From IMG/VR virus record IMGVR_UViG_3300042876_000338, positions 1-59,156 of that record: 59,156 bases of DNA. One strand, 5' to 3'. This document shows positions 21,907-44,112 of the stretch, piece by piece (the stretch's first letter is position 1; the number at the start of each line of letters is the position of its first letter). Made by a program: the position numbers and the translations under genes. This DNA is from a virus. The notes under the pieces were generated by a model. The model saw nothing but the letters and a program-made list of their open reading frames with translations, was not told the DNA's origin and made no database searches.

Positions 21907-22127
21907 TCTTCGACGCCCCCGCCCGCCCGCGCGCGTGCTGCAACTGCATCCACTTCCGGCGCCCTGCGATGGATCTCCCACAGGGCGCCGGGACGTGCGT
22001 CGGGCCGGGGGGCGTCGCGGTGCAGTCGCTACCGGATCACCGGGGCCGTGCGTGGATGGGACGGCTGACGCACCCCGATCACGTCGCGGAGTGCTTCGTC
22101 AGCGACGAACAAGGTCGACGGCGGTGA
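21903..22127 (+). CDS. Cys-containing small protein, 74 aa; last gene of the left plus block
   Basis: GTG start overlapping the upstream stop. CCNCIHFRRP near residue 12, GTCVGP near 30 and a later Cys suggest a compact metal site. It ends inside the 3' end of the convergent lipoprotein gene (29-base overlap, 22099-22127), which marks the junction of the early (plus) and late (minus) transcription units. Confidence 0.68.
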   Translation: MIFDAPARPRACCNCIHFRRPAMDLPQGAGTCVGPGGVAVQSLPDHRGRAWMGRLTHPDHVAECFVSDEQGRRR

Positions 22128-22530
22128 GCCGCGCTTTGACCGCCGCCGCGCACGACTTCGCGGGCGGCTCGGTGTAGTCCTTCTCGCAGATCGAGAGCCC
22201 GACGTGACACGCCTCCTCGGGGAGCGCGCCGTCGCGGGCGAACGGCGAGTAGACGATCCCGATCTGATGGTCGCCGCCCGTGTCCCCCCAGACCACTCGA
22301 CCGTCAGGGATCACGTAGGGCGCGGCGTGGACCGCGATCGTCCCGCCCCACTGCCCCGTAACGGCGCACGACGCCTGCGCCCGTGCCGCAGCCATGACGT
22401 CCTGCCACCCGGCGGGCTCCGCGACGCCGTCGAGTAGCTCGACGCGCCACGAGCGCGGATGATGCGCGCAGGCCGTGAGCGCGAGCGCGGCCGAGATCGC
22501 GATTAAACCGGAGTGGGTCCGAGGCCGCAC
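22099..22530 (-). CDS. Lipoprotein, 143 aa; last gene of the late operon
   Basis: The N-terminus is a lipoprotein signal (GLIAISAALALTAC, lipobox LTAC, Cys 21). The remainder has four Cys, predicted beta strands (TIAVHAAPYVIPDGRVVWG) and no known domain. It lies at the 3' end of the minus operon beyond a strong terminator, so expression is probably low. Candidates are outer-membrane lysis factor or superinfection-exclusion lipoprotein. Confidence 0.75.
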   Translation of the reverse strand: MRPRTHSGLIAISAALALTACAHHPRSWRVELLDGVAEPAGWQDVMAAARAQASCAVTGQWGGTIAVHAAPYVIPDGRVVWGDTGGDHQIGIVYSPFARDGALPEEACHVGLSICEKDYTEPPAKSCAAAVKARLTAVDLVRR

Positions 22531-22534
22531 GGGG

Positions 22535-22879
22535 TCACCGCCGCCGGGCAGCGTGCGCCGCGACGATCAGCACAACGGCGCCGATCGCGCCGTACTTGAT
22601 CAGCGGCCACTTCGAGGGGCGTGGGTCACCGTAGGGCGACCACGTGATCGGGTTGCCGCCCCCGAGTTGGATCTCGATCCGCGGCTTCAGGTAGTCGGCC
22701 GCGGTCTTCTGGCCCGGCGCCTTCGGCGGGGAGGGCTCGAACGGCCGCGGGATGAAGATGTCGGGGCCGTAGGCGGTCTGGATGCGGATCGACTTGACCT
22801 GCGCGTTGAGTGTGTCTTCGACGAGTCCGTCGAAGTCGAAGCTGTTGGGGTTGAAACCCTCGAAGACGGCGAGTCTCAT
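22535..22879 (-). CDS. C-terminally membrane-anchored protein, 114 aa
   Basis: It begins MRLAVFEGFNPN, matching MRLAIFEGY at the start of the 36611-37255 protein. A Pro-rich middle is followed by one span near residues 90-109 (IKYGAIGAVVLIVAAHAA) and a basic end RRR. AGGAG lies upstream. The tail-anchor layout recurs in the late operon, so this is a candidate virion membrane protein. It starts only 32 bases past a strong terminator. Confidence 0.78.
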   Translation of the reverse strand: MRLAVFEGFNPNSFDFDGLVEDTLNAQVKSIRIQTAYGPDIFIPRPFEPSPPKAPGQKTAADYLKPRIEIQLGGGNPITWSPYGDPRPSKWPLIKYGAIGAVVLIVAAHAARRR

Positions 22880-22910
22880 AGCGTTCTCCTAAGCGTGATC
22901 CGCTGCCAGT

Positions 22911-22946
22911 AAAAAAGGCCCGCCCGAGAGCAATCTCGGGCGGGCC
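22911..22946 (-). terminator. Strong rho-independent terminator (minus strand)
   Basis: A perfect 13-bp stem GGCCCGCCCGAGA with its complement over a 4-base loop, followed on the minus strand by TTTTTT (22916-22911). It ends most late transcription after the transglycosylase gene; the two genes beyond it must rely on readthrough or on an unseen promoter. Confidence 0.9.
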
Positions 22947-23020
22947 ACGGTTCACGCCGGGAGGGGGCGCGAGAACGGAGTAGGAACCCCGTCGAAACCG
23001 ATGGTGCCCGAGATGCCCGG

Positions 23021-23731
23021 CTACGTCAACTTTGCTGCGGCCTGCGCGCCGCGGTTGGACACGTCCGCGACGTAGTCCCCCTTGGCCGTGGTGAACTGCG
23101 CGGGCTTGCCCGCGACGAGCGACATGAGCACGTTCCCCTCCCCGGTGTTGTAGGCCGCGATGGCGGCCTCCCAGAGCGCCTTGCCGGTGAGCGGCCGGGG
23201 ATCGGGGTACTTGCCCGGGGGCACGCCGCGCCGCTCAGCAGCCGCGGCCGAGAGCGTCACGTACTGCCCGTCGGTGAGCCCCTTGGCCGCACTCCGGCCC
23301 GTGAAGAACGCGAGCTTCGCCTTCAGGATCTTCGCGCCCTTCTTCACGTTGACGTAGGGGTTCGTCCAGTCGTTCGAGACGAGCCACGGCCCGAACGACC
23401 CGTCGTCGATCTGCATGAGGCCGTGGCCGTGACCGCTGTCCCCGGTGCCCGCCGGACCGCGAGGGCTCAGCGCGTCGCCCCAGAGCGACTCACGATCGCC
23501 GAGGGCGAAGATGAGGTAGGGATCCAGCGCCTCCTCGCGCGCAACCTGAAGCATCGTGTCCGAAAAGGAGCGAGCGCGCTCAGGCAGCGACGCCTTGAAC
23601 GCGAGTTCCTTGCCAGCAGTCACGACCTTGCCAAAGAGATTCACGATTGACCTCCGCGCGAAGAACAACGTGGTGACACCGACCACGCCGAACAACGCGA
23701 GAAGCAGGTTGCGGCGAGAAGGAAGAGGCAT
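23021..23731 (-). CDS. Membrane-anchored lytic transglycosylase (SLT-like), 236 aa
   Basis: One N-terminal span (residues 8-26, LLLALFGVVGVTTLFFA) precedes a lysozyme-like domain. The catalytic Glu is E81 in ALGDRESLWG, followed by GHGLMQIDDG near 103-111 and AAIAAYNTGEGN near 195, the classic SLT layout. It should cleave peptidoglycan. In membrane-containing phages a membrane-bound transglycosylase of this kind sits in the virion and opens the wall during DNA entry; a lysis role is also possible. It is the last gene before the strong terminator. Confidence 0.9.
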   Translation of the reverse strand: MPLPSRRNLLLALFGVVGVTTLFFARRSIVNLFGKVVTAGKELAFKASLPERARSFSDTMLQVAREEALDPYLIFALGDRESLWGDALSPRGPAGTGDSGHGHGLMQIDDGSFGPWLVSNDWTNPYVNVKKGAKILKAKLAFFTGRSAAKGLTDGQYVTLSAAAAERRGVPPGKYPDPRPLTGKALWEAAIAAYNTGEGNVLMSLVAGKPAQFTTAKGDYVADVSNRGAQAAAKLT

Positions 23732-23749
23732 AGAGATCCTCGAAGGGAC

Positions 23750-23839
23750 CTACCGGCGGTGGGTCCGCTTCTTCTTGCAGCGGCCCTTGCGGGGGCCCGA
23801 CTTCACGATGCCCTTGGGGCACTTGCGGTGCTTCGCCAT
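23750..23839 (-). CDS. 29-aa Lys/Arg-rich peptide
   Basis: ATG at 23839 has GGAGAAGCAC upstream. The peptide (MAKHRKCPKGIVKSG...) is about half Lys/Arg/His with two Cys, similar to the 35-aa and 64-aa basic peptides at 37591 and 37709. Probably a DNA-condensing virion peptide. Short, so support is the ribosome site and position. Confidence 0.6.
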   Translation of the reverse strand: MAKHRKCPKGIVKSGPRKGRCKKKRTHRR

Positions 23840-23859
23840 TGTGCTTCTCCTTTTGCTAT

Positions 23860-23904
23860 GCGGTGTCTAGAACACCGCGGTTGAGGATCGAGAAGTCTCG
23901 ATCC
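23860..23904 (-). terminator. Tandem hairpins (possible attenuator)
   Basis: Two small perfect hairpins: 23860-23866 with 23872-23878 (GCGGTGT/ACACCGC) and 23885-23893 with 23896-23904 (GGATCGAGA/TCTCGATCC). They sit between the 23910 gene and the 29-aa peptide gene. There is no T run, so they may slow polymerase or protect mRNA ends rather than terminate fully. Confidence 0.4.
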
Positions 23905-23909
23905 AGTTG

Positions 23910-24194
23910 CTAGCAGGACCGCAGCATCGACGCGACGCGGCGATAGATGCGAGTGAACTCGGGCTGTGGATAGTCGCGAGCGATCGACGACATGAACGCG
24001 GCCAGCGACCGGCGCGTGTACGACATGCCGCCGATCCTGATCGTCTTGTCGGCACGGAGCAACTCCTGCGCTCCCCGCAGATCGTTGCGCGTGCCCGAAC
24101 TCGGGCCGAAGGTCTTGACTGCCTTCTTGATCGACGCTGAGAGGTAGCGTCGATCTACGGCGCTCACCTTGCACGTCTTTCGCCTCGTCGCCAT
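23910..24194 (-). CDS. Small basic late protein, 94 aa
   Basis: Begins MATRRKTCKVSAVDRR, helical and basic throughout, with two Cys (near residue 8 and at the end, LRSC). ATG at 24194 lies right at the end of the previous gene. Part of a run of small basic genes 23750-25674. Likely a virion or DNA-packing protein by context only. Confidence 0.72.
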   Translation of the reverse strand: MATRRKTCKVSAVDRRYLSASIKKAVKTFGPSSGTRNDLRGAQELLRADKTIRIGGMSYTRRSLAAFMSSIARDYPQPEFTRIYRRVASMLRSC

Positions 24195-24196
24195 GG

Positions 24197-24553
24197 CTAC
24201 CTCACCTTCCTGCGAGATGACGGAAAACAGACGGTCTTGAACTGACGCGTAACCTCGCGCAGCGCCCCGGCGAGCGGCCCATGAACTCGCGTAGCCTCCG
24301 TCGACTTGGGATACGTCCAGCGCACGGCCGCCTTCGTGGACGCGGCGAAGCGTGATCCGGTATAAATCCCGCTCTCCTGCGCCGCGACGAGAAGGTGTCC
24401 CATCGCCCACGCGCAGCGGGACGCGCGGCTGCCCTTCTTCCCCGGCGTGAGCGCAGCCTTCGCCGCCTTCAGCGCCGAGATCGCCGGGCCGCGGTTCCAG
24501 CGAAGATGCTCACGCAGCGCCGTGTCTCCGAAGTTCTTTCGTCGCTTTGCCAT
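24197..24553 (-). CDS. Small basic late protein, 118 aa
   Basis: Starts MAKRRKNFGD; contains RWNRGPAISALKAAKAAL and SRCAWAMGHLLVAA, and ends KTVCFPSSRRKVR. The WN-x4-SAL element also appears in the 25393-25674 protein (GWNNCHSALDSLL), so the two may be related. Unknown function; late-operon position suggests a structural role. Confidence 0.74.
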   Translation of the reverse strand: MAKRRKNFGDTALREHLRWNRGPAISALKAAKAALTPGKKGSRASRCAWAMGHLLVAAQESGIYTGSRFAASTKAAVRWTYPKSTEATRVHGPLAGALREVTRQFKTVCFPSSRRKVR

Positions 24554-24554
24554 G

Positions 24555-25202
24555 TCATTTCTCCTTCTTGTACGCCGCGGGGTTACGGCAGAGGTGGTCG
24601 CGCGCGATCTGCTTCGCCGTCTTCTTCGAGAACTCCGGGTGCTCTCGGTGCTCGATCCGAGCGCCCTTCGCAAGCTGGCGAACGTTGATCTTGCCGCACC
24701 GGATCTTCCCGCGGTAGCCGTCGAGCGCGACGATCGGCTCTCCGTTCTTGATCGCGAGCCGCCGCAGCGGGGGACCGCGCGTGATCCCGGTCGTCTTCGA
24801 GACGGGCGCGGTGCGATAGGGCACCTTATCCCCCTTCATGAAGCACGTCGGCTTGGCCTCCCACCGCTTCGAGTCGAAGACGCAGACCGCTTCCTTCTTC
24901 TTGAAGGAAAGCTGTCGCGCCGCGGCGAGCGCTTCGGATTCCTTCTCGACGATCTCCGTCGTCCATGACGACTTCGCGGACTTCTCCGCGGAGCGGACGA
25001 TGAAGGCGCCGTAGCCGCGCGCACCCCGACTGCCCAGCCGAGCGCCGCCGGAGCCGATCGCGCAGAGTTCCTCGACACGGCCCGACTCGTAGTCCTGCGC
25101 GACGCCGGGCGTCATCCGATCGACGGCGCGCTTCGCCGCGCCACAGTCGCCCTTGCGGGCGAGGTCAGCGGGAATCCCGTTGAAACGAGAATGACGCTTC
25201 AT
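24555..25202 (-). CDS. DUF5661-like late protein, 215 aa
   Basis: ATG at 25202 has CGGAGGAACG upstream; an in-frame start 81 bases earlier would cross the next gene. The C-terminus (IEHREHPEFSKKTAKQIARDHL then a Pro-Ala-Tyr end) fits the DUF5661 pattern seen in many phage proteins (EH...A..IA.DHL.E.P.YY). The middle has FMKGDKVPYRTAP and GYRGKIRCGKINV. Role unknown. Confidence 0.8.
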   Translation of the reverse strand: MKRHSRFNGIPADLARKGDCGAAKRAVDRMTPGVAQDYESGRVEELCAIGSGGARLGSRGARGYGAFIVRSAEKSAKSSWTTEIVEKESEALAAARQLSFKKKEAVCVFDSKRWEAKPTCFMKGDKVPYRTAPVSKTTGITRGPPLRRLAIKNGEPIVALDGYRGKIRCGKINVRQLAKGARIEHREHPEFSKKTAKQIARDHLCRNPAAYKKEK

Positions 25203-25390
25203 CCGTTCCTCCGATCGATCGACACCGCGGTCATTCCGACCTTGCAGCGCGTGCGCTTCGACCACTTCCCCCGCGGGCAGCAAACGAACACGCGTGCTCG
25301 GCCGGAGGCGACGGTGCGAACCGAACCGCGAGCGCAGACGCGCTTCCAGTTCTTCAACCGCTTGCGCCGATAGCCCTTGGGGAGTGGCAT
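25199..25390 (-). CDS. Small Arg/Lys-rich Cys protein, 63 aa
   Basis: ATG at 25390 (MPLPKGYRRKRLKNWK). Four Cys (one near 19, CC near 36, one near 47) within very basic sequence. Overlaps the next gene (ATGA). Probable nucleic-acid or capsid-binding mini protein. Confidence 0.68.
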   Translation of the reverse strand: MPLPKGYRRKRLKNWKRVCARGSVRTVASGRARVFVCCPRGKWSKRTRCKVGMTAVSIDRRNG

Positions 25391-25392
25391 GG

Positions 25393-25674
25393 CTACCTCG
25401 TCAGGACGCACTTCAGCCCGAAGCGGTACTTCATCGACTTGAACATCCGCGCCTGCCACCCGCCACGTCCGGTAGCATGCCCGCGCTCGACGGTGGACTG
25501 CGCGCTCATGCGGTTGAACGTCAGCAGGGAGTCAAGCGCCGAGTGGCAGTTGTTCCAGCCGAGTTGCTTGCGGAACTCTTTGGCCCACCACCTCGCCGCC
25601 TTCCCGGCCTCACGCGCCTGAGCGCGGTGCGCCGCCGGAGGGCTGCCGAACGTCTTTCGCTTCGCACGCGCCAT
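25393..25674 (-). CDS. Small basic late protein, 93 aa
   Basis: Starts MARAKRKTFGSPP; helical, with GWNNCHSALDSLLTFNRMSA and a C-terminus FGLKCVLTR. Shares the WN...SAL element with the 24197-24553 protein. Late-operon context only. Confidence 0.7.
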   Translation of the reverse strand: MARAKRKTFGSPPAAHRAQAREAGKAARWWAKEFRKQLGWNNCHSALDSLLTFNRMSAQSTVERGHATGRGGWQARMFKSMKYRFGLKCVLTR

Positions 25675-25676
25675 GG

Positions 25677-26879
25677 CTACCTCCGGCCCTTCGGCATGAA
25701 GAGGAGGACCGCGCCGATCCCGAGCGCAGCCGCGATGCCGATCACCTTCGGATCCTTGAAGTCGATCGACGGCATCTTGAACCCGCCGCCCGACGACCCC
25801 GCGGGCTTCGGCGGGAGCAGCCGCACGGGCTCCATCGGCTTGACCGCCGCGGCCTTCGTCGGCCGTCCGGACCACGCGATGCCGAGCGAGTCGGCGAAGT
25901 CGGCCCACCGCTCGTCGGCGGGGAGCGCCCACGACTTCTCGAACGCCGCGATGCCCGCGCGCGTCTTCGGCCCCAACTTGCCGTCGAGCGGGCCGGGATC
26001 GAAGCCGAGATCCTTCAGCCGCGACTGCGCTGCGGAGAGCGACCCCGAGCCGACCGTGATCAGATCCGCTTCGAGCACGCCGAATCCGGAGACCGGCGTC
26101 TGCGCCGCCTTCTTGCCGAGGAGGAACCCAGCGGCGAGCCCGACGCCTGCGCCGATCGGCCCGGCGACCGCGAAGCCAACCGCGGCCGGGCCGAGCGTCT
26201 TGACGAGCCCGCCGATCCCGCCGCTCGACTTCACGGGAGATCCCGCGCCGCCGGAGGCCGCCGCGACCTGCTGAAGCTCGTCGACCGTCGTGACCTCGCC
26301 GTCGTCGGTCGAGAACGGTGCATCGGTGGGGATGTAGTTGGACCCCGACGTCCCCGACTCGGACCCCGCGGAGATCGCCATCGTCTCGGCGAGCGTCGGA
26401 TCCGCCGCCGCGGCGCTCGCGGCGCCACCGCTCGCCGCAGCCCCGGCGACGCCGAGCGCCGTGGTCCCGACCTCGAACGCGGTCGCCGCGCTCATCGATC
26501 CCGCCGCGCTGGCGATGAGCGGTGCGGCGTAGATCCCGCCGACGACCGCCGCGCCCGCCGCCGCGCCGACCGCGGAGATGTCACGCGCGTCGCGAACGAA
26601 GCTGCTCTTGTAGGCTCGGTTGACCTGCGTGTTGAGCCGCGCCATCGGCTTCGCCCCGGACTTCGCGAGGACGTGCGTGACCGCCTTGGACTGGAACGCA
26701 GCCGCCGCGACGATCGGGGCGACCGCGATCGTGCCAACGGCCTTCACGAACGCCTTGGGGCTCGACACCGACTTCTTCGCGAAGCCCTTGGCCTTCTTCA
26801 CGCCCTTCTTGAGCTTCGAGCCGATTCCGTCGAAGGCGTCGTTCGCTTCCAGCGCTGCCATCGTGTTCAGGTCGTACAT
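25677..26879 (-). CDS. Large membrane protein with a peptidoglycan-binding domain, 400 aa
   Basis: A basic N-terminus (residues 20-45, Lys-rich) is followed by several Ala/Gly-rich hydrophobic stretches (about 46-62, 103-150 and 225-257). Near 275-315 there is a PG_binding_1-type module (SLSAAQSRLKDLGFDPGPLD...KTRAGIAAFEK). The end is a C-terminal span (VIGIAAALGIGAVLLFMP) and KGRR. It has no enzyme motif, and fits an internal-membrane virion protein that meets the cell wall during DNA entry, alongside the transglycosylase. An own promoter in the 90-base gap upstream is possible but not clear. Confidence 0.82.
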   Translation of the reverse strand: MYDLNTMAALEANDAFDGIGSKLKKGVKKAKGFAKKSVSSPKAFVKAVGTIAVAPIVAAAAFQSKAVTHVLAKSGAKPMARLNTQVNRAYKSSFVRDARDISAVGAAAGAAVVGGIYAAPLIASAAGSMSAATAFEVGTTALGVAGAAASGGAASAAAADPTLAETMAISAGSESGTSGSNYIPTDAPFSTDDGEVTTVDELQQVAAASGGAGSPVKSSGGIGGLVKTLGPAAVGFAVAGPIGAGVGLAAGFLLGKKAAQTPVSGFGVLEADLITVGSGSLSAAQSRLKDLGFDPGPLDGKLGPKTRAGIAAFEKSWALPADERWADFADSLGIAWSGRPTKAAAVKPMEPVRLLPPKPAGSSGGGFKMPSIDFKDPKVIGIAAALGIGAVLLFMPKGRR

Positions 26880-26969: not shown

Positions 26970-27629
26970 TTACTTCGGACAGACTGCGGGCCACGTCTTG
27001 TCGACACCGACTCCATCGAAGCGCGCTACGCACGGTTTCGGCTGACACGCCGCCGATGGCGTAAACATCCGGGCGGAAAGCGTCGTTCCGATCGGAGCGG
27101 CGGTCACGCCGTCGGCCGCTTTGCACAGGCTGCTTAGCGCGCAAGCACAACGCGCGGAAGTGCCGAAGGTCGCGTCGTCGGCACGTGCGATGGCAACTTC
27201 GCACGTCGCATCCACAGGCGAAGGACGAAGCTCGACCTCGTTCCGAATGACGTCGAAGTTCTGAAGGATCAGTCGAGGGTCGAAGGTAGCAGTGTTTGCC
27301 GGTACAGCTTGGATCTCCAACACCCCGTATTGCTCTGTGGCGTCGAGCCACGACGTCGCTCCCGAGGGAAGCGCCATTCCCAACCGCTGTTGCACGGCGA
27401 CCGACATGACCACGACCCCGGCGCGTACGGTCACACTGCCCGGAGCCGCAGATCCCAGCCCGGCGAACTTCACGCAGACCCGAGTCTTGGCCGCGTTGCG
27501 CGTGATCGTACGCGTTCCCGCTTGTACGGCTAGCGCGGTGGAGTAGAGCGTGTTCACCGCCCCGATTTCCTGATCGGTCGCGGCCGGAATGAACTGCGTC
27601 AGCATCGCGGCAAGAAGGAGCGAGTTCAT
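26970..27629 (-). CDS. Exported Cys-containing protein, 219 aa
   Basis: ATG at 27629 gives a signal peptide (MNSLLLAAMLTQFIPAATDQ); a start at 27653 is possible. The mature part is beta-rich, with VTVRAGVVVMSVAVQQRLG and several Cys near the C-terminus (ARCACALSSLC ... CQPKPC) suited to disulfides. It lies in a row of four genes with Sec-type signals. Possibly a periplasm-assembled spike or a host-surface modifier. Confidence 0.72.
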   Translation of the reverse strand: MNSLLLAAMLTQFIPAATDQEIGAVNTLYSTALAVQAGTRTITRNAAKTRVCVKFAGLGSAAPGSVTVRAGVVVMSVAVQQRLGMALPSGATSWLDATEQYGVLEIQAVPANTATFDPRLILQNFDVIRNEVELRPSPVDATCEVAIARADDATFGTSARCACALSSLCKAADGVTAAPIGTTLSARMFTPSAACQPKPCVARFDGVGVDKTWPAVCPK

Positions 27630-27634
27630 ATGAA

Positions 27635-28966
27635 TTACCACGCCTGATCGCAAGTAGTGTTGAAGAGTCGGACGCTTCTGAATGCCAACGATTGTGAAAG
27701 CGCCCCGACCACATTGCCGAAGTCAGATCCCAGAAAGAGCGGGGACTGTGGAGGAGCGACGCCGACGTAGTTTCCCACAGCGCGGACCATACCACCCGCC
27801 CAGATCGACACCCGCGGAGTTGCAAGGCTAAGATCCAAGCCTAGCCGGTATTCGCGCGACGCACGGTCATATGGATCCCACGTAGCCGGAACAACGCCGT
27901 CAATCCAGCCGAGCGCGGTGGTACCCGTTTGCGTCAGGCGCCACGACGTAGCGTTCGCCGTACCCACCGACCACAATGTCTGCGACGGATATTGAGTCGT
28001 TGGGGCTACCGCGTAGGCAGTAACGGCTTTCACGCAGTTCGTCTTACCGGCAAATCCGGTAGTGATTCCAGCGAAGAGATCGGTGCTACGGCTCACGGCC
28101 GTTGTCGTCGTAACGATCCGGCTCATGCCCGGATAGATCGCACCGACGTAGCTATTAGCGGAGCGAACACAGATCGTCATGTTCGCGCCGTACGCGTGAA
28201 CGTACATGCCGAGTCCGGGAGGATCGGGTAGCGTCGAAGTTGCCGTTGCCGCGACGGCGAGACGAACCGGCGTGGTTCCCACCGTTGCCGTCGCAACCAC
28301 GGTATACGTCCCTCCCGCCCCGCTGGCGGTGCATACGCCGTCGTCCGATCGCCAGCAGTACGGAGTTCCCGTGTAAGTTTCCCCCCCGCTAATGGACGCG
28401 AGCAACTGAATCGTCGCCGTGCCAGTTCCCCCCGTAGGCGCGGCGACATCAATCGTCTGAAGAATACGATCCATGTAGTTGGTCGAAACGTCAGTGAAGA
28501 TTCCCGCTGTGCCGGCGCCTGACGTGATTCGATGAAACCCCGCGGGGCAATTCGCCGCGTTCGCCAAATAGGTTGCTGTGCCGCTTGCAGCCCACCCGGC
28601 GGTCGGCGCATCGCCCGTGATGAACGTTTCACTTTGCTTGGCGAAGTTGGTGTTGGCGAGTTCCACCATGACACCACGTGTATCTTCCACGCGAATCTGG
28701 TTCGCCGCGGCCGTGCTCCACGTCTGCGTGGTCCAGTCGGTGACGTACGTAGCGACGGAGGATCGCGTCACGCTGATCGCTGCTGCGGGGGTACAAAGCG
28801 ACGTGGTACCACTCGCGTAGGCGCCCGCCAGCAAGAACGGGCAGGACAGGATCGGAGACGCCCGAGTGTCCGGGTTAGGGATCAACGTACCGAGATTCCC
28901 CCGGATCAACTTGTCACCCGGCGCGGTGAGCGAAAGAGCGATCAGGCTGGCGACGAGGGCGTTCAT
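27635..28966 (-). CDS. Exported spike/fibre-like protein with LamG-like end, 443 aa
   Basis: ATG at 28966 has CTAGGAGCACGC upstream; an in-frame start 108 bases earlier would cross the upstream gene. The N-terminus looks like a signal peptide (MNALVASLIALSLTAPGD). The protein is Thr/Ala/Gly-rich beta structure, and the last 100 residues (LGLDLSLATPRVSIWAGG ... SLAFRSVRLFN) resemble a concanavalin/LamG-type jelly roll. The codon and composition pattern is more Thr/Ser-rich than its neighbours. Likely receptor-binding or spike protein. Confidence 0.75.
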   Translation of the reverse strand: MNALVASLIALSLTAPGDKLIRGNLGTLIPNPDTRASPILSCPFLLAGAYASGTTSLCTPAAAISVTRSSVATYVTDWTTQTWSTAAANQIRVEDTRGVMVELANTNFAKQSETFITGDAPTAGWAASGTATYLANAANCPAGFHRITSGAGTAGIFTDVSTNYMDRILQTIDVAAPTGGTGTATIQLLASISGGETYTGTPYCWRSDDGVCTASGAGGTYTVVATATVGTTPVRLAVAATATSTLPDPPGLGMYVHAYGANMTICVRSANSYVGAIYPGMSRIVTTTTAVSRSTDLFAGITTGFAGKTNCVKAVTAYAVAPTTQYPSQTLWSVGTANATSWRLTQTGTTALGWIDGVVPATWDPYDRASREYRLGLDLSLATPRVSIWAGGMVRAVGNYVGVAPPQSPLFLGSDFGNVVGALSQSLAFRSVRLFNTTCDQAW

Positions 28967-28974
28967 GCGTGCTC

Positions 28975-29391: not shown

Positions 29392-29405
29392 AAAGTCCTC
29401 CTTGG

Positions 29406-30916: not shown

Positions 30917-30925
30917 GTGATCCTC

Positions 30926-31102: not shown

Positions 31103-31112
31103 CTTCGTTCTC

Positions 31113-31619: not shown

Positions 31620-31627
31620 GGCGGCTC

Positions 31628-36610: not shown

Positions 36611-37255
36611 CTAGAACGCCTCGTCGGAGTCGTAGATCGCGTTGAGGCCGTTGAGCGCCGGGGAGGAGTCCTCGACGAGGACGCCGTACGGCTGCTCCAC
36701 GATCTCGCCGAGACCGGGGACGGTGACGTAGTCGCCGAAGTACGCCGGGAACTGGCGCTTCAGCAGATCCCAGCCGACCGGGACGAGGCCCGCGACCATG
36801 GCGCCGTAGAGCACGCCCTTGGCCTTCGCCATGTTCTTCTTCTTGAGGAAAATGTACCCGCCGATCCCGGCGAGGATCGTCGAGACGGGGCCGATGTTGG
36901 CCGAGATGAAGCCGGGGAGCTTGTCACCGATCCCGGCCTTCTCGATCCCCATCTTCACGACCGCGCCGCCAGCCATGCCGACGCCCGCGCCCATGAGCAG
37001 GTCGTTCATGCGAACGGACTGGCCGAGGGGGTTGAGATCCTTGACGACGCTTCCGATGTTGCCGAGCCCGGGGATCGTGAGGTAGTCCCCGAAGCCACGG
37101 CGCCTGCGACGGCGGTGAGCCATGTGCTTCTCCTTCTGGGGCGACACGCCCCGGTGGTCGCGGCGCCGCGAGCTACCGCGCGAGTTTGAACTGGAACGCC
37201 GAGCGCCAGTACCGGCGCCGGGAACGGTGTAGCCCTCGAAGATCGCGAGCCGCAC
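36611..37255 (-). CDS. Membrane protein with repeated FGDY-PGLG motif, 214 aa (short form 170 aa)
   Basis: GTG at 37255 (after TAGGAG) gives a 44-residue extension beginning MRLAIFEGY, like the 22535-22879 protein. An internal ATG at 37123 (after AAGGAG) gives MAHRRRRRRGFGDY and may be the main start, so two forms are possible. The motif FGDYLTIPGLGNI near the short-form start recurs as FGDYVTVPGLGEI near the end. Between them are two or three spans (MGAGVGMAGGAVV, VSTILAGIGGYIFL, GVLYGAMVAGLVPVG). The 3' end carries a hairpin CTAGCTC/GAGCTAG (36598-36614). Confidence 0.78.
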   Translation of the reverse strand: MRLAIFEGYTVPGAGTGARRSSSNSRGSSRRRDHRGVSPQKEKHMAHRRRRRRGFGDYLTIPGLGNIGSVVKDLNPLGQSVRMNDLLMGAGVGMAGGAVVKMGIEKAGIGDKLPGFISANIGPVSTILAGIGGYIFLKKKNMAKAKGVLYGAMVAGLVPVGWDLLKRQFPAYFGDYVTVPGLGEIVEQPYGVLVEDSSPALNGLNAIYDSDEAF

Positions 37256-37264
37256 GGTGAACTC

Positions 37265-37582
37265 CTACTTCCGCTTGCGGAGGAGCATGAACGCGCCGAG
37301 GCCGAGACCGGCGAGGGCGACGTACATGAGGATCGTGCCGGTGTCGTCTTCCTTCGGCTGGACGAACGAGGGGTCCATCGGGTTCGTCCGCAGCCCGGTG
37401 CCCGCCTTGCCACCCCCGGTGAGCGCCTTCGTGGCGTCGGCCGCGGCGCCCGCGGTGTCCCCCTTCGCCCACTTGCCGACGATCGTGTGCCCGGGGACGA
37501 CGGCCGCGAGACCCGACTTCACGGAGTCGAGCCAGCCGCCGAAGCTCTCGTTGTACTGGTAGACGCTCTGTGGCGAGAACAT
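37265..37582 (-). CDS. C-terminally anchored protein, 105 aa
   Basis: ATG at 37582 follows AGGAGGACCC. A polar N-terminal domain (MFSPQSVYQYNESFGGWLD...) and a Gly/Lys linker lead to one C-terminal span near 84-100 (GTILMYVALAGLGLGAFML) and tail LRKRK. Candidate virion membrane protein. Confidence 0.78.
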   Translation of the reverse strand: MFSPQSVYQYNESFGGWLDSVKSGLAAVVPGHTIVGKWAKGDTAGAAADATKALTGGGKAGTGLRTNPMDPSFVQPKEDDTGTILMYVALAGLGLGAFMLLRKRK

Positions 37583-37590
37583 GGGTCCTC

Positions 37591-37698
37591 CTACCGGCCG
37601 CGCTTCAGCTTCGAGCGCATGCACGCCTTGTGCGCCGTCTTCTTCTTGCCCTTGCACGCCCGAGCCGCCGCCGCGAACCGCTTCTGATGGTGGGTCAT
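37591..37698 (-). CDS. 35-aa basic peptide
   Basis: ATG at 37698 with AAGGAGATCGGC upstream. MTHHQKRFAAAARACKGKKK... has two Cys and is about 40 percent Lys/Arg/His. It resembles the C-terminal part of the 64-aa peptide next door (AARACAG), so the two may share origin. Probable DNA-binding virion peptide. Confidence 0.62.
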   Translation of the reverse strand: MTHHQKRFAAAARACKGKKKTAHKACMRSKLKRGR

Positions 37699-37708
37699 GC
37701 CGATCTCC

Positions 37709-37903
37709 TTAGAAGTGCTTGCGGATGCAGGCGCCGCGGGTCTTCGTGCCGACCTTGCCGACGCCCGCGCAGGCACGAGCCGCACGGGCGAGCGCCTTCT
37801 GCGCCTTCGTCTTCGGCGAGCACTTGTGCGCGGTGAACGACCGGCGACCGATCTTCACGCGGATGGAACGCTTCGCTCCGGCTCTCTTGCAGTTCTTCGC
37901 CAT
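37709..37903 (-). CDS. 64-aa basic peptide
   Basis: ATG at 37903, GGAG upstream. MAKNCKRAGAKRSIRVKIGRR... with four Cys, ending GACIRKHF. Contains ALARAARACAG similar to the neighbouring 35-aa peptide (FAAAARACKG). Likely nucleic-acid or capsid binding. Confidence 0.68.
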   Translation of the reverse strand: MAKNCKRAGAKRSIRVKIGRRSFTAHKCSPKTKAQKALARAARACAGVGKVGTKTRGACIRKHF

Positions 37904-37905
37904 GA

Positions 37906-38133
37906 TCAGCTCCTCTTCGATCCGCGAGTCGCGGCTCGGTACAGCATGAACGCGCCGATCACGGCGCCGAGAACGATGGGATGCGTCGCGTAGAACACCG
38001 CGATCTCGACCTTCGTGGCCTCGCGCGCGGTGACGTTGCCCCCCGCGGGCATGAACTGCCAGCCGCGATTCACGTCCCAGAAGACGCCGCCCGAGACGGG
38101 CGCGACGGTACGTGCGAGGAGCGGAACGGCCAC
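37906..38133 (-). CDS. C-terminally anchored small protein, 75 aa
   Basis: GTG start close behind the previous stop. A short ectodomain-like N-terminus (TVAPVSGGVFWDVNRGW), one span near 52-68 (HPIVLGAVIGAFMLYRA) and a basic tail TRGSKRS. Same topology as 37265 and 22535. Confidence 0.68.
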   Translation of the reverse strand: MAVPLLARTVAPVSGGVFWDVNRGWQFMPAGGNVTAREATKVEIAVFYATHPIVLGAVIGAFMLYRAATRGSKRS

Positions 38134-38136
38134 GAG

Positions 38137-38457
38137 CTAGTACCTCTTCGACGCACGCCGGGTGCGGCGCGATTTGCGGTTGGACTTCGAGTAGCCTGCG
38201 AATCCGGCGAACGCGCCCGACCGCTTCGAGATCGACGAGGCGATCTTGCGGAGCGCGCCGCCGATCGCCTTCCGCGGATTCTTGCCCGACACGCACGCCG
38301 ACGACTTCCATGCGGGGCCGCTCCGACGGTTCAAGCTCTGGTTGACGAAGGCGCACGCGCGGAACGCGCCCGACGCGGTCACGTTGGGGATGATCCTGAC
38401 ACGCACGTCGATCATCCTGATCCGGCCCGTCGTGTCTGTCCGTCTGACCTTCGCCAT
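38137..38457 (-). CDS. Small basic paralogue family member, 106 aa
   Basis: Starts MAKVRRTDTTGR; the core is IDVRVRIIPN, FRACAFVNQSLNRRSG, SACVSGKNPRKAIGGALRKIASSI, then an Arg/Ser/Lys-rich tail. It shares the strand / x-AC / C-x-G-x-NP-x-KA-x3-AL layout with 30399, 30572 and 31628 genes. Confidence 0.76.
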   Translation of the reverse strand: MAKVRRTDTTGRIRMIDVRVRIIPNVTASGAFRACAFVNQSLNRRSGPAWKSSACVSGKNPRKAIGGALRKIASSISKRSGAFAGFAGYSKSNRKSRRTRRASKRY

Positions 38458-38467: not shown

Positions 38468-39019
38468 CTATTCCGGGGGCCAGTAGGTCATCACGCGGCC
38501 CTTCGGCGGCTCCCAGCCGACGGAGGCCGACGCAACGGTCGTGTCGAGGCCGTGCCCGCCGTAGCTCTTGGGCCACGGCCCGTTCTTCGGCACGGCGGCG
38601 ACGCAGTAGACGTGGGTGTAGTTGCGGGATCCGGCTTTGCCGTACGCGCGAGCGCCGACCTTGAAGCCGATCGACGCGGCGAGCGCGCCGACGAGGATGT
38701 TGTGCTCGTCGCAGTCGCCAGCGCAGGCGCCATCCTCGCACTCTTCGAGGATCTTCTTCGCGCCCTGATACCAGTCGACGCTGCGGGGGTCGCTGACGTA
38801 GCGGAGCCCCTTCTCCAGCCCCGGGATGCGCGGGTCGCCTTCCTTCACCGCGCGGAAGATGGCTTCGAGTTCGCAGAGGTCGTCGCGAGCGGAGCAGTCC
38901 GACGTGATCTGACGCGCGGCCTTGACGACCTTCGGGTCGATCGCGCCCTTCGCGATCAACTCACCGATGATGGTCAACGCTGCCCGTTGGTCTGGGACGT
39001 CCGCAAATCGAAACGGCAC
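38468..39019 (-). CDS. Transglutaminase-like cysteine protein, 183 aa
   Basis: The GTG start at 39019 has GAGGGG upstream. ACAGDCDEHNILVGALAASIGF around C103, a His in YTHVYCVAAVP at 136 and GLDTTVASASVGWEPP with D159 make the Cys-His-Asp triad of the transglutaminase/papain-like superfamily. Phage members crosslink or process capsid or act as peptidases. Placed at the head of the virion-gene block. Confidence 0.8.
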   Translation of the reverse strand: MPFRFADVPDQRAALTIIGELIAKGAIDPKVVKAARQITSDCSARDDLCELEAIFRAVKEGDPRIPGLEKGLRYVSDPRSVDWYQGAKKILEECEDGACAGDCDEHNILVGALAASIGFKVGARAYGKAGSRNYTHVYCVAAVPKNGPWPKSYGGHGLDTTVASASVGWEPPKGRVMTYWPPE

Positions 39020-39027
39020 TCGACCCC

Positions 39028-39163: not shown

Positions 39164-39213
39164 ACGGGGGGACGGGAGGAGTGCTCGGAGAGAACTCCAA
39201 CGTCGTGATTCTT

Positions 39214-40680
39214 CTATCCCGGTTCCTCGTCGGACGCAAGTCCCGCGGCCTTCGCGAGCGGGGCAAGCTGCGTGAGCAGCGCCGCCGCGTACTGCTGGTT
39301 CGCGGGGTCGTTCGCCCACTCGTTGCCGAGCCGCGACTGGAACATGGTGATGATGTTGCCTCCCGCGGACTCGATCGCGGCCTGCGTCTCCTCGTCGCTC
39401 TGCATGGCGGCGATGATCGCCCCAGCGAGACCGTTGATGTCGGGGTCGCGCTGCGCGATCCGCATGACGATCTGATCGAGCACGGACACCTCGTTCCCCG
39501 CAGCCGCGGGCGGCTGCGCTCCGCTGAACGGCTGCTGCGGCGTCGCCGGAGCGGCTGGGCGCGGAGGCAGCGCAGGCGCCGCAGGCGGCTGCGTCATGCC
39601 GACGGCAACGCGCTCTCCCATCGCCGAGAAGAACGCCTTGGCGATCCCGCTCCATCCCTCCTCTTCCTGCGGCTTCGCGCCGAGACCCATCTCGATCGCG
39701 CTCGTCATCGTCTGGAGCATCGTGCGCGTCATCGTCGCCGACGCCTCGGACATGGCCGCCATGACCTTCGCGACCTCGGCGCCCTGATTGGCGACGCGCT
39801 CCATGAGCGTGTCCTGCCGCTTCTGCGCCTCCGCAGCGCGCGCCTCCTCACGCTGCTGATCCTCGCGACGGCGCGACTCCTCGCGCTCGATCCGCGCCTG
39901 CTCTGCGCGGACGCGCTCGACCTCGGCCGCGGAGCGCGACGTGAGGAGCGGCGCGACGAGCGGCGTGATCGCCGCGACGATCGTGGTGATCGTCTGCGTG
40001 ATGTCGGTCGTCGGAGCCTTCTGCGACGCGACCGTCTTGACGAGGTCACGAAGCTCGGCGAGGTGCGCGTCGCTTCGGCGCTGCGCCTCCTGCGACTCCC
40101 GCCGGATCGCCTCGATCTCGGCCTTGCGGCGGTCCTCGGCGAGCCGCTCGCGCTCCGCGGCAAGCTGCGCGCGGGCGTAGTCGACGTCGGCGCCGGGACG
40201 GTTGGGGTCGAAAGAGGGAACGGGAGGAACCCCGTTGGTTTGTCTTGGCGAGACGCTTCCCGAGGGGGCGCCTCCCGTTCCCATGCTGTTGGGGGTGGGG
40301 TACACGAGAGCCTTCGGCCCCATCCACCCGGGCGAGTCCACCGTCGCCCAATTGATCTTGTCGGAAGCGATCGGGGCGCCCGCGAGCGCGGGGAGCCGGA
40401 TCATCGCGGTCGTGCGGCCCACCTTCCGATCCACGGAGTGCGTGAGGTAGAGCAGGTAGCTCCCGCTCGAACCCGTGCCGCCCATGAGCGGCGGGATCCA
40501 CGAGTCGGCGTTGGCGATCTGCTCGACCGTGGCCGCGTCGAAGGTTGCGAGCGACTCGATCCGCCCGTTCGGCGAGTCCTGCCGCGCGATCTTCACGCGC
40601 CAGTCGTCGCCATCCTGCTGGGCGCGCGCGGCGAGCGCACCCATGATCTCGTCGTTGGTCCTGCCGGTCACGTCGTTCAT
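39214..40680 (-). CDS. Long coiled-coil structural protein, 488 aa
   Basis: An N-terminal globular part (residues 1-150, with YLLYLTHSVDRKVGRTTAMI) is followed by a highly charged coiled coil of Arg/Glu/Ala repeats (about 170-310), a Pro/Ala-rich linker (390-420) and a helical end. No hydrophobic tape-measure core and no enzyme motif. Could be a scaffold or internal virion protein. It is the last gene before the terminator. Confidence 0.75.
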   Translation of the reverse strand: MNDVTGRTNDEIMGALAARAQQDGDDWRVKIARQDSPNGRIESLATFDAATVEQIANADSWIPPLMGGTGSSGSYLLYLTHSVDRKVGRTTAMIRLPALAGAPIASDKINWATVDSPGWMGPKALVYPTPNSMGTGGAPSGSVSPRQTNGVPPVPSFDPNRPGADVDYARAQLAAERERLAEDRRKAEIEAIRRESQEAQRRSDAHLAELRDLVKTVASQKAPTTDITQTITTIVAAITPLVAPLLTSRSAAEVERVRAEQARIEREESRRREDQQREEARAAEAQKRQDTLMERVANQGAEVAKVMAAMSEASATMTRTMLQTMTSAIEMGLGAKPQEEEGWSGIAKAFFSAMGERVAVGMTQPPAAPALPPRPAAPATPQQPFSGAQPPAAAGNEVSVLDQIVMRIAQRDPDINGLAGAIIAAMQSDEETQAAIESAGGNIITMFQSRLGNEWANDPANQQYAAALLTQLAPLAKAAGLASDEEPG

Positions 40681-40689
40681 GGCATCTCC

Positions 40690-40962: not shown

Positions 40963-40971
40963 GGTGTTCTC

Positions 40972-41313
40972 CTAGTCCAGCGAGGGATCGGTGATGAGGC
41001 CGGTTGCCCGGCCGAGAAGGAAGTTCATCCCGGTCGTGTAGAACGGGAACGCGAGGATCGCGGGCCACGGCAGGACGTTGCAGTTGAACGCGGCGAGCCC
41101 CATCGCGAGGCCGATCCAGAAGCCGAAGCACGCGGGGCACTCCAGCAACGTGACGAACGTCTGCGCCCAGAAGCCGCCGACGTCCCAGAGCGCGAGGCGC
41201 ACGGGGCGCGAGATCCGAGAGTGGCCCACGATGTACGCGAGCCCGAAGGCGGCGACGGTGTAGACGATCCACCCGATGAGAAGTCCAACGTCGGTGCGCA
41301 GAAGCGAGATCAT
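40972..41313 (-). CDS. Multi-span membrane protein, 113 aa
   Basis: Three probable spans (residues 9-29, 48-70 and 75-95). A motif ECPACFGFWIGL resembles DUF1360-type small membrane proteins (CxxCxGFW). Overlaps the thioredoxin-like gene by four bases, which hints at a thiol-linked job. Confidence 0.76.
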   Translation of the reverse strand: MISLLRTDVGLLIGWIVYTVAAFGLAYIVGHSRISRPVRLALWDVGGFWAQTFVTLLECPACFGFWIGLAMGLAAFNCNVLPWPAILAFPFYTTGMNFLLGRATGLITDPSLD

Positions 41314-41612
41314 TCGTGGTCCTCCAGTGACAGGTCAGACTCAGCCTTCGCGATCCATGCCATGACCTGCTCGAACGACATGGTCCCTTCCTTCACGGCT
41401 GCTTTGTCCCCGATGCGGAAGATCCACGTTGGCGTTGCGCGGATCTTCACGCCGACGCGTGCCGCCGGGGCGCCGTTGACGTTCAGTTTCAACGCCATGA
41501 TCAGCGGGTGAGCGCGAGCGACTTCGTCGAAGACGGGTTCCGACTCTTCGCAGGCGCCGCACCCGGGCTGGAATAGGAATAGCAGTCGGCGAGCGCGTAG
41601 ATCGAGCGTCAC
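41310..41612 (-). CDS. Thioredoxin-like protein, 100 aa
   Basis: GTG at 41612 overlaps the upstream stop (GTGA). FLFQPGCGACEESEP (CGAC, residues 18-21) and the cis-Pro loop ATPTWIF near 59-65 are the two thioredoxin-fold signatures. No signal peptide, so cytoplasmic redox chemistry or polymerase/packaging support is likely. It is sandwiched between two membrane-protein genes. Confidence 0.84.
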   Translation of the reverse strand: MTLDLRARRLLFLFQPGCGACEESEPVFDEVARAHPLIMALKLNVNGAPAARVGVKIRATPTWIFRIGDKAAVKEGTMSFEQVMAWIAKAESDLSLEDHE

Positions 41613-41953: not shown

Positions 41954-41961
41954 CGTGTCTC

Positions 41962-42168: not shown

Positions 42169-42431
42169 GGCGTCGCCATACGCTTTCCCGCTTCCGCGGT
42201 GCACGCGATCAGGAACTCCGAAGTCACCGAGGAGCACACGTTGGCGTTCATGAGCGCCCGCGCGGCGCGAGTCGCCCAGCCCTTTCGTCCCGCGCGGACG
42301 TGCCCCGCTACGATCTCGTACGCACGCGCCATGGACTCGCGCGACTCCGCTTCGCGCTGCTTGCTCGCGGCCTTCGAGTCCCACACGAACGTCTTTCCGG
42401 TCTTCGCGTTCGTCAGCTTCACTCGCGCCAT
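42165..42431 (-). CDS. Small basic protein, 88 aa
   Basis: MARVKLTNAKTGKTFVWDSK at the start, then Ala/Arg-rich helices and two Cys (ANVCSSV, LIACTAE). Overlaps the next gene. Late-operon basic protein of unknown role. Confidence 0.7.
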   Translation of the reverse strand: MARVKLTNAKTGKTFVWDSKAASKQREAESRESMARAYEIVAGHVRAGRKGWATRAARALMNANVCSSVTSEFLIACTAEAGKRMATP

Positions 42432-42653
42432 CTAGAACCTCCACCGCAGGCCCGCGCCCGCATCCCATGATCGATCGGTCAGCACGCCCGCTTCGGCGTA
42501 CGCGCTCCACTTCTTCGAGAACCGCCACGTCGCTTCGAGCGCGGCGCGGCCCAGCACGTCGTTCGTTCCCAGCTTCCCCACGGCGTCGAGGTGAAGGTCG
42601 AGGTACTTGGACCCGACGGGCTCACGCTCGGCGGCCGACAGCCCGGACTCCAC
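42432..42653 (-). CDS. Short outer-membrane-barrel-like protein, 73 aa
   Basis: GTG at 42653 has no good ribosome site, and translation may be coupled to the holin gene. Alternating beta pattern KYLDLHLDAVGKLG, RAALEATWRFSKKWSAYAEAG and a final GAGLRWRF. Ending on Phe after alternating residues is the beta-signal of outer-membrane proteins. Too short for a full barrel and without signal peptide, so it may be a remnant or a virion beta protein. Confidence 0.55.
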   Translation of the reverse strand: MESGLSAAEREPVGSKYLDLHLDAVGKLGTNDVLGRAALEATWRFSKKWSAYAEAGVLTDRSWDAGAGLRWRF

Positions 42654-42682
42654 GCGCTCGTGCGGCGCGTCGAGCCGGGCGG

Positions 42683-43162
42683 CTAAGGGTTTGCCGGAAG
42701 CCCCGCGGGATCCGTGGAGGACACCGTCGGGTCGATCGGCGGAATCCCCCCGCGGAACTTCGTGGACTCGATCGCCGCTTCGAGGTGCGAGCCGATGAAC
42801 GAGTCGACGAGGCCCGGGGCAACGCCGAGGACGGAGACGATCTCCGCGAGGCCCTTCGCGCCGAGGTGCGCCTTGACCTTCGCGATGGCGTGGGCGCGAA
42901 TGATCGCCTTCTCGTCGTCGGTGATCTTGCCGTCCTTCGCGGCGTTGATCATGTCGGCCTTCATGGTGCCGTTCAGGTCGAGCACGACGGTCTGGACGGT
43001 GGAGACGAGGCGCGCGAGCACGCCCGCGAGGACCGCGTTCTTCGTCTTCACGTTGATCAGGTCGATCAGCTTCTTCCCGCCGAAGGTGATCAGCGCGGCG
43101 AGGACGGTGAACGCGGCGGGAACGACGATCTGGAGGAACATTGCCTGAATCTCGGGGCCCAT
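42683..43162 (-). CDS. Holin-like protein (Holin_LLH type), 159 aa
   Basis: ATG at 43162 follows TAAGGAG. One N-terminal span near 9-27 (LQIVVPAAFTVLAALITFG), then a charged region ARLVSTVQTVVLDLNGTMKAD and DGKITDDEKAIIRAHAIAKVKAHLGAKGL in order, the layout of the LLH-type phage holin family, with a Pro-rich end. It should time lysis by permeabilising the inner membrane. Confidence 0.82.
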   Translation of the reverse strand: MGPEIQAMFLQIVVPAAFTVLAALITFGGKKLIDLINVKTKNAVLAGVLARLVSTVQTVVLDLNGTMKADMINAAKDGKITDDEKAIIRAHAIAKVKAHLGAKGLAEIVSVLGVAPGLVDSFIGSHLEAAIESTKFRGGIPPIDPTVSSTDPAGLPANP

Positions 43163-43190
43163 GGTGGATCTCCTTAGAGTTTGAACTGGA

Positions 43191-43775
43191 CTACTTGAAG
43201 CCTTGCGCGGCGCGGAGGATCTTGTCGTAGGCCGCGCTCGACTCGCGCTGCGCGCGGCGGTCCTTCGGGGTGAAGAAGCTGCGCTCCTGCGGGCATCCGC
43301 CGTAGGGCGGGGTCACGGAGAGTTCACGGTCCTCTTCCGTCCACGCAGCGCACACGCCAAGCTCACCGAGGGCGTGCTCGACGTCGTGATCGATCTCGCG
43401 AACGTCGAGCGGAAGCTCGGTGCTCTCGGCGCCGAGGATCTCCGCGCGCATCTTGTTCAGGATGTCGCCGCCTTCGCGATTCGACGGATCGCTGAACTTC
43501 TTTTTGACTGTCAGCCAGTCCTGATTGCGGAAGTGCGCGCAGAGGTGACACAGCGTCGACTGATCGAGCGCCATCTCGTACGCCGTCGTCTCCTGCCCGA
43601 TCCGCGTGAGCTTCTCGGCGACGACCTTGCGTCCCTCGACGGCCTGATTGCCCAGCGCGATCGACACGGGAGCCATCACGACGTGCGTGGCCTTCTCCTC
43701 TTCGGGCTCCGCATGCTGACCGCGCTCGTCCACGCCGCCGCGGTGGATCTCGATCTTCTCATCGGCGATCTGCAT
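43191..43775 (-). CDS. Hypothetical protein with Cys pairs, 194 aa
   Basis: ATG at 43775 follows GGAGGAACCC; it overlaps the upstream gene by 17 bases. CHLCAHFRNQDW near 75-86 and two later Cys (GVCAAW, YGGCPQ) suggest metal binding. The middle is acidic and helical. Unknown role, early in the late operon. Confidence 0.76.
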   Translation of the reverse strand: MQIADEKIEIHRGGVDERGQHAEPEEEKATHVVMAPVSIALGNQAVEGRKVVAEKLTRIGQETTAYEMALDQSTLCHLCAHFRNQDWLTVKKKFSDPSNREGGDILNKMRAEILGAESTELPLDVREIDHDVEHALGELGVCAAWTEEDRELSVTPPYGGCPQERSFFTPKDRRAQRESSAAYDKILRAAQGFK

Positions 43776-44112
43776 CGGGTTCCTCCCATGCCGGATTCGA
43801 GGCGAGGGTGTCGGGATTCGCACGGTGAGCCGCGGGGACGAAGCTCACCGGGTCGCGCTCGAACTCGGCGTACGTGCGGCGCACGATCTCGCGCATCCAC
43901 CCGAAGGCGGCCATTCGCGCCTCGAAAAGCGCGCGCTTGACCGCCCAGAACTGATCACGGTCCTGAGCGACGGGGGCGACCAGCTTCAGCAGGTTCCTGA
44001 CGTGCGCCGCAGGGGGTAGGCCAAGCTCGGCCGCTTGCTCGATCAGCCAGTCCCACTCGGGAGCGGTCATGTCGAGGCGCACTTGACGTGCTGCATAGCG
44101 AGGCGGTGCCAT
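43759..44112 (-). CDS. Ribbon-helix-helix-like protein, 117 aa, first gene of the late operon
   Basis: The N-terminal RQVRLDMTAPEWDWLIEQAAE and the next helix PPAAHVRNLLKLVA follow the strand-helix-helix outline of RHH regulators. A longer helical tail follows. ATG at 44112 falls next to the predicted transcription start, so the mRNA may be leaderless; no SD is visible. A late-gene regulator is a reasonable guess. Confidence 0.72.
   Translation of the reverse strand: MAPPRYAARQVRLDMTAPEWDWLIEQAAELGLPPAAHVRNLLKLVAPVAQDRDQFWAVKRALFEARMAAFGWMREIVRRTYAEFERDPVSFVPAAHRANPDTLASNPAWEEPDADRR

Follow-up and report, generated by a model that had tools for sequence, protein, structure and literature searches.

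A complete 59-kb phage genome that combines a predicted double jelly-roll capsid gene and homologues of SSIP-1 virion genes with the replication genes of tailed phages

The stretch of DNA analyzed here, referred to as the window, is the entire IMG/VR virus record IMGVR_UViG_3300042876_000338 (59,156 nt), and our main subject is its late operon, a set of 44 called genes (g36–g79) that appears to encode a tailless virion related to that of Salisaeta icosahedral phage 1 (SSIP-1). The genes of the window are arranged in two blocks, namely a leftward late block running from 44.1 to 22.1 kb and a rightward early block that spans the junction of the record, starting near 44.4 kb, reaching the end at 59.1 kb and continuing as far as 22.1 kb (Table 1). 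The two ends of the record share an exact 73-bp direct repeat, which means that the genome either closes into a circle of 59,083 bp or carries a 73-bp terminal repeat. Because the repeat is exact, the genome is complete with nothing large missing, which rules out an early idea that the contig was incomplete and allows the absence of genes to be interpreted.

An original prediction, made from the letters of this DNA alone, had recognized no terminase, portal, HK97-type capsid or tail gene in the late block, and this holds for the complete genome. When 42 late proteins were scanned, PHROGs matched none of them to a terminase, portal, capsid or tail family, Pfam gave PG_binding_1, SLT and thioredoxin as the sole meaningful matches, and neither collection pointed to a sheath, tape measure or baseplate gene. 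Similarly, no terminase, portal or HK97 capsid family was among the PHROGs and Pfam matches listed, up to the first 25 families, for the early proteins, which comprised DNA polymerase A with UDG, UvrD, an intein-bearing SNF2-like helicase, DUF3987, PD-(D/E)XK, Sak4, an N6/N4 methylase, a topoisomerase VI-like protein, a glycosyltransferase, a SprT-like protein and integrase. As a positive control, sister phages with the same replication genes as the window were put through the same PHROGs search, which did detect their TerL (2e-13), portal (1e-20), sheath (2e-177) and head protease, the sheath control being the myovirus G019. The Terminase_6N model found no match in the window and was also blank in 18 related records, some of them tailed; since it misses the TerL of the sister phages, it is the PHROGs scan that counts. 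By these scans, none of the genes that mark the Caudoviricetes (TerL, portal, HK97-fold capsid and tail genes) was found in the closed genome. Hallmark proteins can diverge strongly, and the window replicates with a module of the tailed-phage type, with the polymerase of G019 in the same clade, so one might think of a tailed phage whose head, packaging and tail genes have become too divergent to recognize. We consider this very unlikely, because TerL and portal are detected in the sister phages by the very same search, because the large proteins of the window are mostly explained by other families or belong to the late set of membrane, coiled-coil and beta proteins, with no TerL-, portal- or tape-measure-like candidate left in the closed circle, and because the late operon holds a predicted double jelly-roll (DJR) protein and homologues of SSIP-1 gp34 and gp54.

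In connection with the capsid, g58, g59 and g60 are tandem paralogues (hhalign 96–99%), present as three copies per close genome, while no link between these proteins and g57 could be detected by hhalign. An AlphaFold model of g60, built from 11 sequences (pLDDT 74.5, pTM 0.75), consists of two domains of eight strands each, preceded by 48 disordered N-terminal residues. Its best PDB matches in Foldseek were DJR capsid proteins, namely the major capsid protein (MCP) of PBCV-1 (2e-7) and proteins of Singapore grouper iridovirus (SGIV, 8e-7), STIV (3e-5) and vaccinia (D13, 4e-5), together with enzymes of GH172/DUF2961, the recognized cellular DJR family (PMC8812541). Judged from this model, g60 is predicted to be a DJR capsid protein, one of three paralogues. 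In the BFVD viral library, the g60 model was matched by the 256-aa protein I1ZBI0 (TMt 0.61), which equals SSIP-1 gp47 in length (both 256 aa), a coincidence that is suggestive only. The enzymes of the same fold among the Foldseek matches, together with the integrase genes, would also suit a plasmid or other non-viral element whose beta proteins would be surface proteins or DJR glycosidases, with wall enzymes that take part in conjugation or secretion. This appears most improbable: the best Foldseek matches are viral capsid proteins, the residues invariant in g58–g60 (M1, N76, P124, P157, P201, N227, G358 and R360) include no acid, unlike an enzyme family, no conjugation gene was among the matches listed by Pfam and PHROGs, DUF2961 loci are reported without virus-specific genes (PMC8812541), and homologues of an SSIP-1 virion protein are present.

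The phage g61 protein is 39–46% identical within the close clade and has a homologue in a more distant 104.6-kb genome, G031 (5e-7), and, less surely, in G015 and G016 (3e-4). As this is the widest spread detectable by sequence in the capsid block, g61 is a candidate main shell protein. Against PDB sequences, profiles of g61 and of the g58–g60 family gave nothing meaningful; weak Alba matches (E 0.1) in this search were taken as chance. Upstream of the block, g62 starts at 37147 or at 37255, the latter with a good ribosome-binding site.

A connection to a known phage comes from g68. Its motif GDCD...HVY...LD is that of transglutaminase-like cysteine proteases, and its relatives reach Pfam Transglut_core (PF01841). 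Searched against 50,697 phage records at E ≤ 10, g68 found only the two copies of SSIP-1 in that set, at gene gp34, which is annotated as a structural protein; the g68 profile matches gp34 at 1.3e-16 (hhalign 98.4%). Again, the anchored SLT protein gp54 of SSIP-1 is matched by g38 in phmmer (7e-10) and by its relative G009_42 (7e-16). On these alignments the window is related to SSIP-1, encoding homologues of SSIP-1 virion proteins in g68 and g38. In published accounts, SSIP-1 is a cultured, tailless, membrane-containing icosahedral phage of about 100 nm with T=49 and a circular dsDNA genome of 44 kb (PMC6260650, PMC6356626). For its capsid, a possible single jelly-roll architecture with two MCP types has been reported. 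The likeness extends to a circular dsDNA genome of tens of kb, a coiled-coil-like gene directly ahead of the protease (gp33/g69), a membrane protein ahead of tandem capsid-type beta proteins, and small C-terminally anchored proteins; the window is larger (59 kb), and the UDG-PolA module is not seen in the SSIP-1 annotation.

Relatives of the window were found through its polymerase: an alignment of the UDG-PolA protein with distant phages defined a clade, and the clade's own alignment yielded 80 contigs, which have in common the module DUF3987/helicase, PD-(D/E)XK, Sak4, SSB-like, UDG-PolA and SMC-like ATPase. No relatives were found with 8-residue patterns of g60, g61, g62 and g5 in IMG/VR, or with tblastn of g60 and g61 in phages. 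We compared complete or long records of the relatives with the window. The late module of the window recurs in the same order in G008 (57.9 kb, 127-bp terminal repeat) and G009 (56.2 kb), and most of it in G026 (37.3 kb). More distant are G016 (85.8 kb, 127-bp terminal repeat), G015 (52.6 kb) and G031, which share in part the protease, SLT, thioredoxin or g61-like genes. Another of the more distant genomes, G006 (105.7 kb, 51-bp terminal repeat), has by sequence only the replication genes in common with the window, and its late genes show no tailed hallmark in Pfam or PHROGs. Other carriers of the replication module are tailed and were rejected as tailless kin, namely G010–G014 and G017, which have TerL, portal and MCP genes, and the myovirus G019 (sheath and Mu-like head protease; L207, L208). 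Also rejected was virus Rctr197k, the second-best polymerase match, whose source culture had a tailless membrane phage seen in it, because it carries terminase-like and head-morphogenesis genes. The clade polymerase (34–39% identity) is in addition carried by two contigs from genome collections, L172 and L173, the latter a 57,430-bp contig of a metagenome-assembled genome (Proteobacteria bacterium BH10).

Many single-span membrane proteins, along with very basic mini proteins, had been noted among the late genes, and the counts bear this out as an excess over tailed sisters. By one simple hydropathy cut-off, and with related genomes as non-independent samples, hydrophobic segments were counted in 104 of 293 late proteins from eight tailless genomes vs 18 of 174 from six tailed sisters (p 6e-10), and C-terminal anchors in 40 vs 4 (p 2e-5); small basic late proteins numbered 51 vs 14 in the same two sets (p 0.005). 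In the window, the C-termini of g37, g55 and g63 consist of an anchor followed by a short basic tail, and Lys and Arg make up 20–48% of g39–g44, g52, g53, g56, g64, g65 and g67. The membrane-anchored transglycosylase and the peptidoglycan-binding membrane protein read from the sequence earlier were likewise recovered, as Pfam SLT (g38) and PG_binding_1 (g45) matches.

With regard to packaging, a survey with PF01935, PF01580 and Walker-A patterns found no FtsK/HerA packaging ATPase in the window or its close relatives, in agreement with the original prediction, and where P-loops were sought in the late proteins of the close clade, none lay in a plausible setting. Weak FtsK matches fell below the curated cut-off and were mostly on the SMC-like ATPase, and g90 was rejected as a packaging ATPase since it is Sak4 (phrog_124). 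Among the genomes surveyed, DUF87/HerA occurs only in G031, as an ATPase of approximately 600 aa (27664–29466, L220; 6e-9) that is possibly the motor in that branch. We infer that the window may package its DNA without an ATPase, a reading with a serious rival, in which the phage is tailless and SSIP-1-like but is packaged conventionally by an unrecognized ATPase, be it a repurposed g8 or g90 or a host motor. We give this rival a substantial, if somewhat less than even, chance: SSIP-1 has a structural ATPase (gp40), the distant G031 encodes its HerA/DUF87-like protein, and P9-type motors may escape the Pfam models for FtsK and DUF87, whereas the close clade lacks a late P-loop gene in a plausible setting, the conserved P-loop proteins of the window fall into replication families that the tailed sisters have as well, and the G031 ATPase is absent from the other genomes. 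As to the suggestion that packaging would be novel, the missing ATPase stands but has precedents in FLiP and the Odin group, prokaryotic DJR viruses already known to be without one (PMC5894146, PMC6260650), although these are of approximately 7–11 kb.

The original prediction had also placed the phage near the PRD1, PM2 and P23-77 groups. PRD1/PM2/STIV-type viruses (Bamfordvirae) and Odin/FLiP resemble the window in the DJR fold, here predicted for g60, and FLiP and Odin also in the missing packaging ATPase; the prokaryotic DJR viruses recovered by an MCP search span 7–18 kb (PMC5894146) and usually have one such MCP gene, whereas the window has three paralogues in a 59-kb genome. P23-77/SH1-type viruses (Sphaerolipoviridae, Helvetiavirae) are tailless with an internal membrane and tandem jelly-roll capsid genes, a likeness that for the window is predicted from its genes, but they have two single jelly-roll MCPs and an FtsK/HerA ATPase, while the fold matches of g60 are double jelly-roll; no sequence link between this type and the window was found. 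The tests run speak against placing the window in the PRD1, PM2 or P23-77 families. Rather, the g68/gp34 and g38/gp54 pairs relate it to SSIP-1, and since SSIP-1 already represents the wider kind, those families are not the closest. A new group with a much larger genome had been proposed as well; the group is indeed undescribed, with circular members of up to 105.7 kb, albeit within a kind for which the 44-kb SSIP-1 already stands.

In their replication module, the tailed phages G010–G014, G017 and G019 resemble the window in UDG-PolA, Sak4, PD-(D/E)XK, helicase and SMC-like ATPase, in similar order, but they carry TerL, portal or sheath genes and a virion module unrelated to that of the window. 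A maximum-likelihood tree of 18 polymerases puts the tailed G019 within the tailless close clade, a placement to be read with the caveat that its contig is not closed and may be a chimeric assembly, and well-supported branches of the same tree require virion type to have changed at least three times. Together, the nesting of G019 and the required changes indicate that the replication module moved between phages of two realms. The PolA of G026 (1176 aa; L212, ~3813–7343) looks intein-interrupted.

Considering all of the above, we regard it as very probable that the window is the complete circular genome of a tailless phage, temperate or once-temperate, with an SSIP-1-like virion in which a jelly-roll shell (g58–g60, g57, g61) surrounds an internal membrane. 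A tailless virion is well supported, by the lack of any tailed hallmark in a complete genome and by the predicted g60 fold, and the homology to SSIP-1 and the style of the genes support a membrane-containing one. Several points weigh against this picture. The TM-scores of g60 to solved capsid proteins are approximately 0.34–0.45 (rmsd 8–13 Å), so that its assignment is at the level of the fold, about 80 of its 365 residues lie below pLDDT 50, and the DJR fold is also found in cellular glycosidases. The AlphaFold model of g61 (4 sequences) reached a pLDDT of 32 and is unusable; hence, of the earlier proposal that five beta-rich proteins are capsid candidates, the part borne out is the g58–g60 paralogy with its DJR-like g60 model, and no beta-rich protein was modeled as a tail part, one of the five (g60) being well modeled. 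Bacterial proteins often contain transglutaminase-like and SLT domains, and it is only their exclusiveness among phages that makes the gp34 and gp54 matches telling. Lastly, the capsid block cannot be aligned with SSIP-1 gp44–gp48 above noise, the giant gp43 and the structural ATPase gp40 of SSIP-1 have no clear counterpart in the window (phmmer for gp40), and the virion is predicted from sequence.

Among the remaining late genes, the beta-rich g46–g48 are possible host-contact proteins, as their sequences suggest. The holin-family matches in the PHROGs scan were weak and tied to no particular protein. An N-terminal motif, M(R/Q)xAx(F/L)EG(Y/F), recurs on several otherwise unlike late proteins (22535–22879 and 36611–37255 in the window, genes 32 and 40 of G008, gene 8 of G009) and is possibly a sorting or processing signal. 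The transglutaminase-like protease gene is tandemly duplicated in G026 (25427–26699, L213). An 'FG' dipeptide as the protease site was dropped, since the 1.6x enrichment in the window is modest and the relatives give no consistent picture. In the late block of G006 (~41–60 kb, L089), acidic FG repeats (DDFGDDDYDDFG...) are followed by Arg/Lys-rich stretches, and FG is found at 1.9 times expectation.

Table 1. Features of the 59,156-nt window, with coordinates, strand and basis of assignment.
Feature	Coordinates	Strand	Basis
Left copy of terminal direct repeat	1–73		Exact 73-bp identity with right end
g5, UDG-PolA fusion DNA polymerase, module marker	1457–4096	+	Family matches, alignments, tree
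g8, SMC/RecF-like ATPase, replication module	5712–7544	+	Pfam AAA_23; conserved
Late (virion and lysis) operon, g36–g79	22099–44112	-	Gene calls; synteny with G008, G009, G026
g38, membrane-anchored lytic transglycosylase (SLT)	23021–23731	-	Pfam SLT 5e-7; phmmer vs gp54
g39–g44, run of very basic proteins	23750–25674	-	Gene calls; Lys+Arg content
g45, peptidoglycan-binding membrane protein	25677–26879	-	Pfam PG_binding_1 5e-7; hydrophobic segments
g46–g48, beta-rich, hydrophobic N-termini	26970–29391	-	Sequence
g52–g56, basic and C-terminally anchored proteins	30399–31930	-	Gene calls; composition
g57, 277 aa, beta-rich, ends capsid block	31940–32773	-	Conserved in G008, G009, G026
g58, 287 aa, g60 paralogue	32783–33646	-	hhalign 98.7% vs g60
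g59, 323 aa, g60 paralogue	33646–34617	-	hhalign 98% vs g60, 96% vs g58
g60, 365 aa, predicted DJR capsid protein	34627–35724	-	AlphaFold and Foldseek
g61, 231 aa, candidate capsid protein	35839–36534	-	Conservation; homologues in relatives
g62, membrane protein upstream of capsid block	36611–37255	-	Conserved in G008, G009, G026; sequence
g63–g67, small membrane-anchored and very basic proteins	37265–38457	-	Gene calls; composition
g68, transglutaminase-like cysteine protease (C103-H136-D159)	38468–39019	-	Motif; gp34 homology
g69, 488 aa, coiled-coil-like, adjoins protease gene	39214–40680	-	Sequence; relatives; position of SSIP-1 gp33
g72, thioredoxin-like, kept in wider clade	41310–41612	-	Pfam 5.5e-6; homologues
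g77, holin-like membrane protein	42683–43162	-	Hydrophobic segments
g81, DUF3987 primase-helicase-like, divergent from g82	45075–46394	-	Family matches
g82, SNF2-like helicase interrupted by HNH-domain intein	46534–48990	+	Family matches
g88, PD-(D/E)XK nuclease, replication module	50478–51290	+	Family matches; conserved
g90, Sak4-like recombination ATPase	52569–53516	+	phrog_124 9e-9; also in tailed sisters
Right copy of terminal direct repeat	59084–59156		Exact 73-bp identity with left end

A plausible course of infection for such a phage would be as follows. Membrane proteins would gather in a membrane patch on which the shell assembles, and the genome, to which the very basic mini-proteins would give a coat, would be enclosed or packaged without a recognizable virus-coded FtsK/HerA motor, while the transglutaminase-like protease g68 would mature virion proteins. 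On entry, the anchored transglycosylase g38 and the peptidoglycan-binding g45 would open the cell wall, and replication would rely on the UDG-PolA/Sak4/helicase module exchanged with tailed phages. A bolder proposal, offered tentatively and with more doubt than belief, is that of a widespread lineage of 56–106 kb tailless membrane phages with several DJR paralogues, in which motor-free packaging would operate through condensation of the DNA by basic proteins, a protease-matured shell would close around a membrane vesicle, and replication modules would be swapped freely with tailed phages across realms.

In summary, the genome appears to reveal an undescribed group of large tailless phages that have the replication genes of ordinary tailed phages. 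SSIP-1 has, to our knowledge, been an orphan since 2012; the phages described here would be its first relatives within the data searched, and would extend its kind to closed genomes of 58–106 kb. They raise the question of how a large dsDNA genome is packaged without a recognizable motor, and such viruses would escape any search built on terminase or capsid markers. Finally, the sharing of replication modules by tailless and tailed phages whose polymerases lie a short distance apart may bear on how isolated the realms of viruses are from one another.

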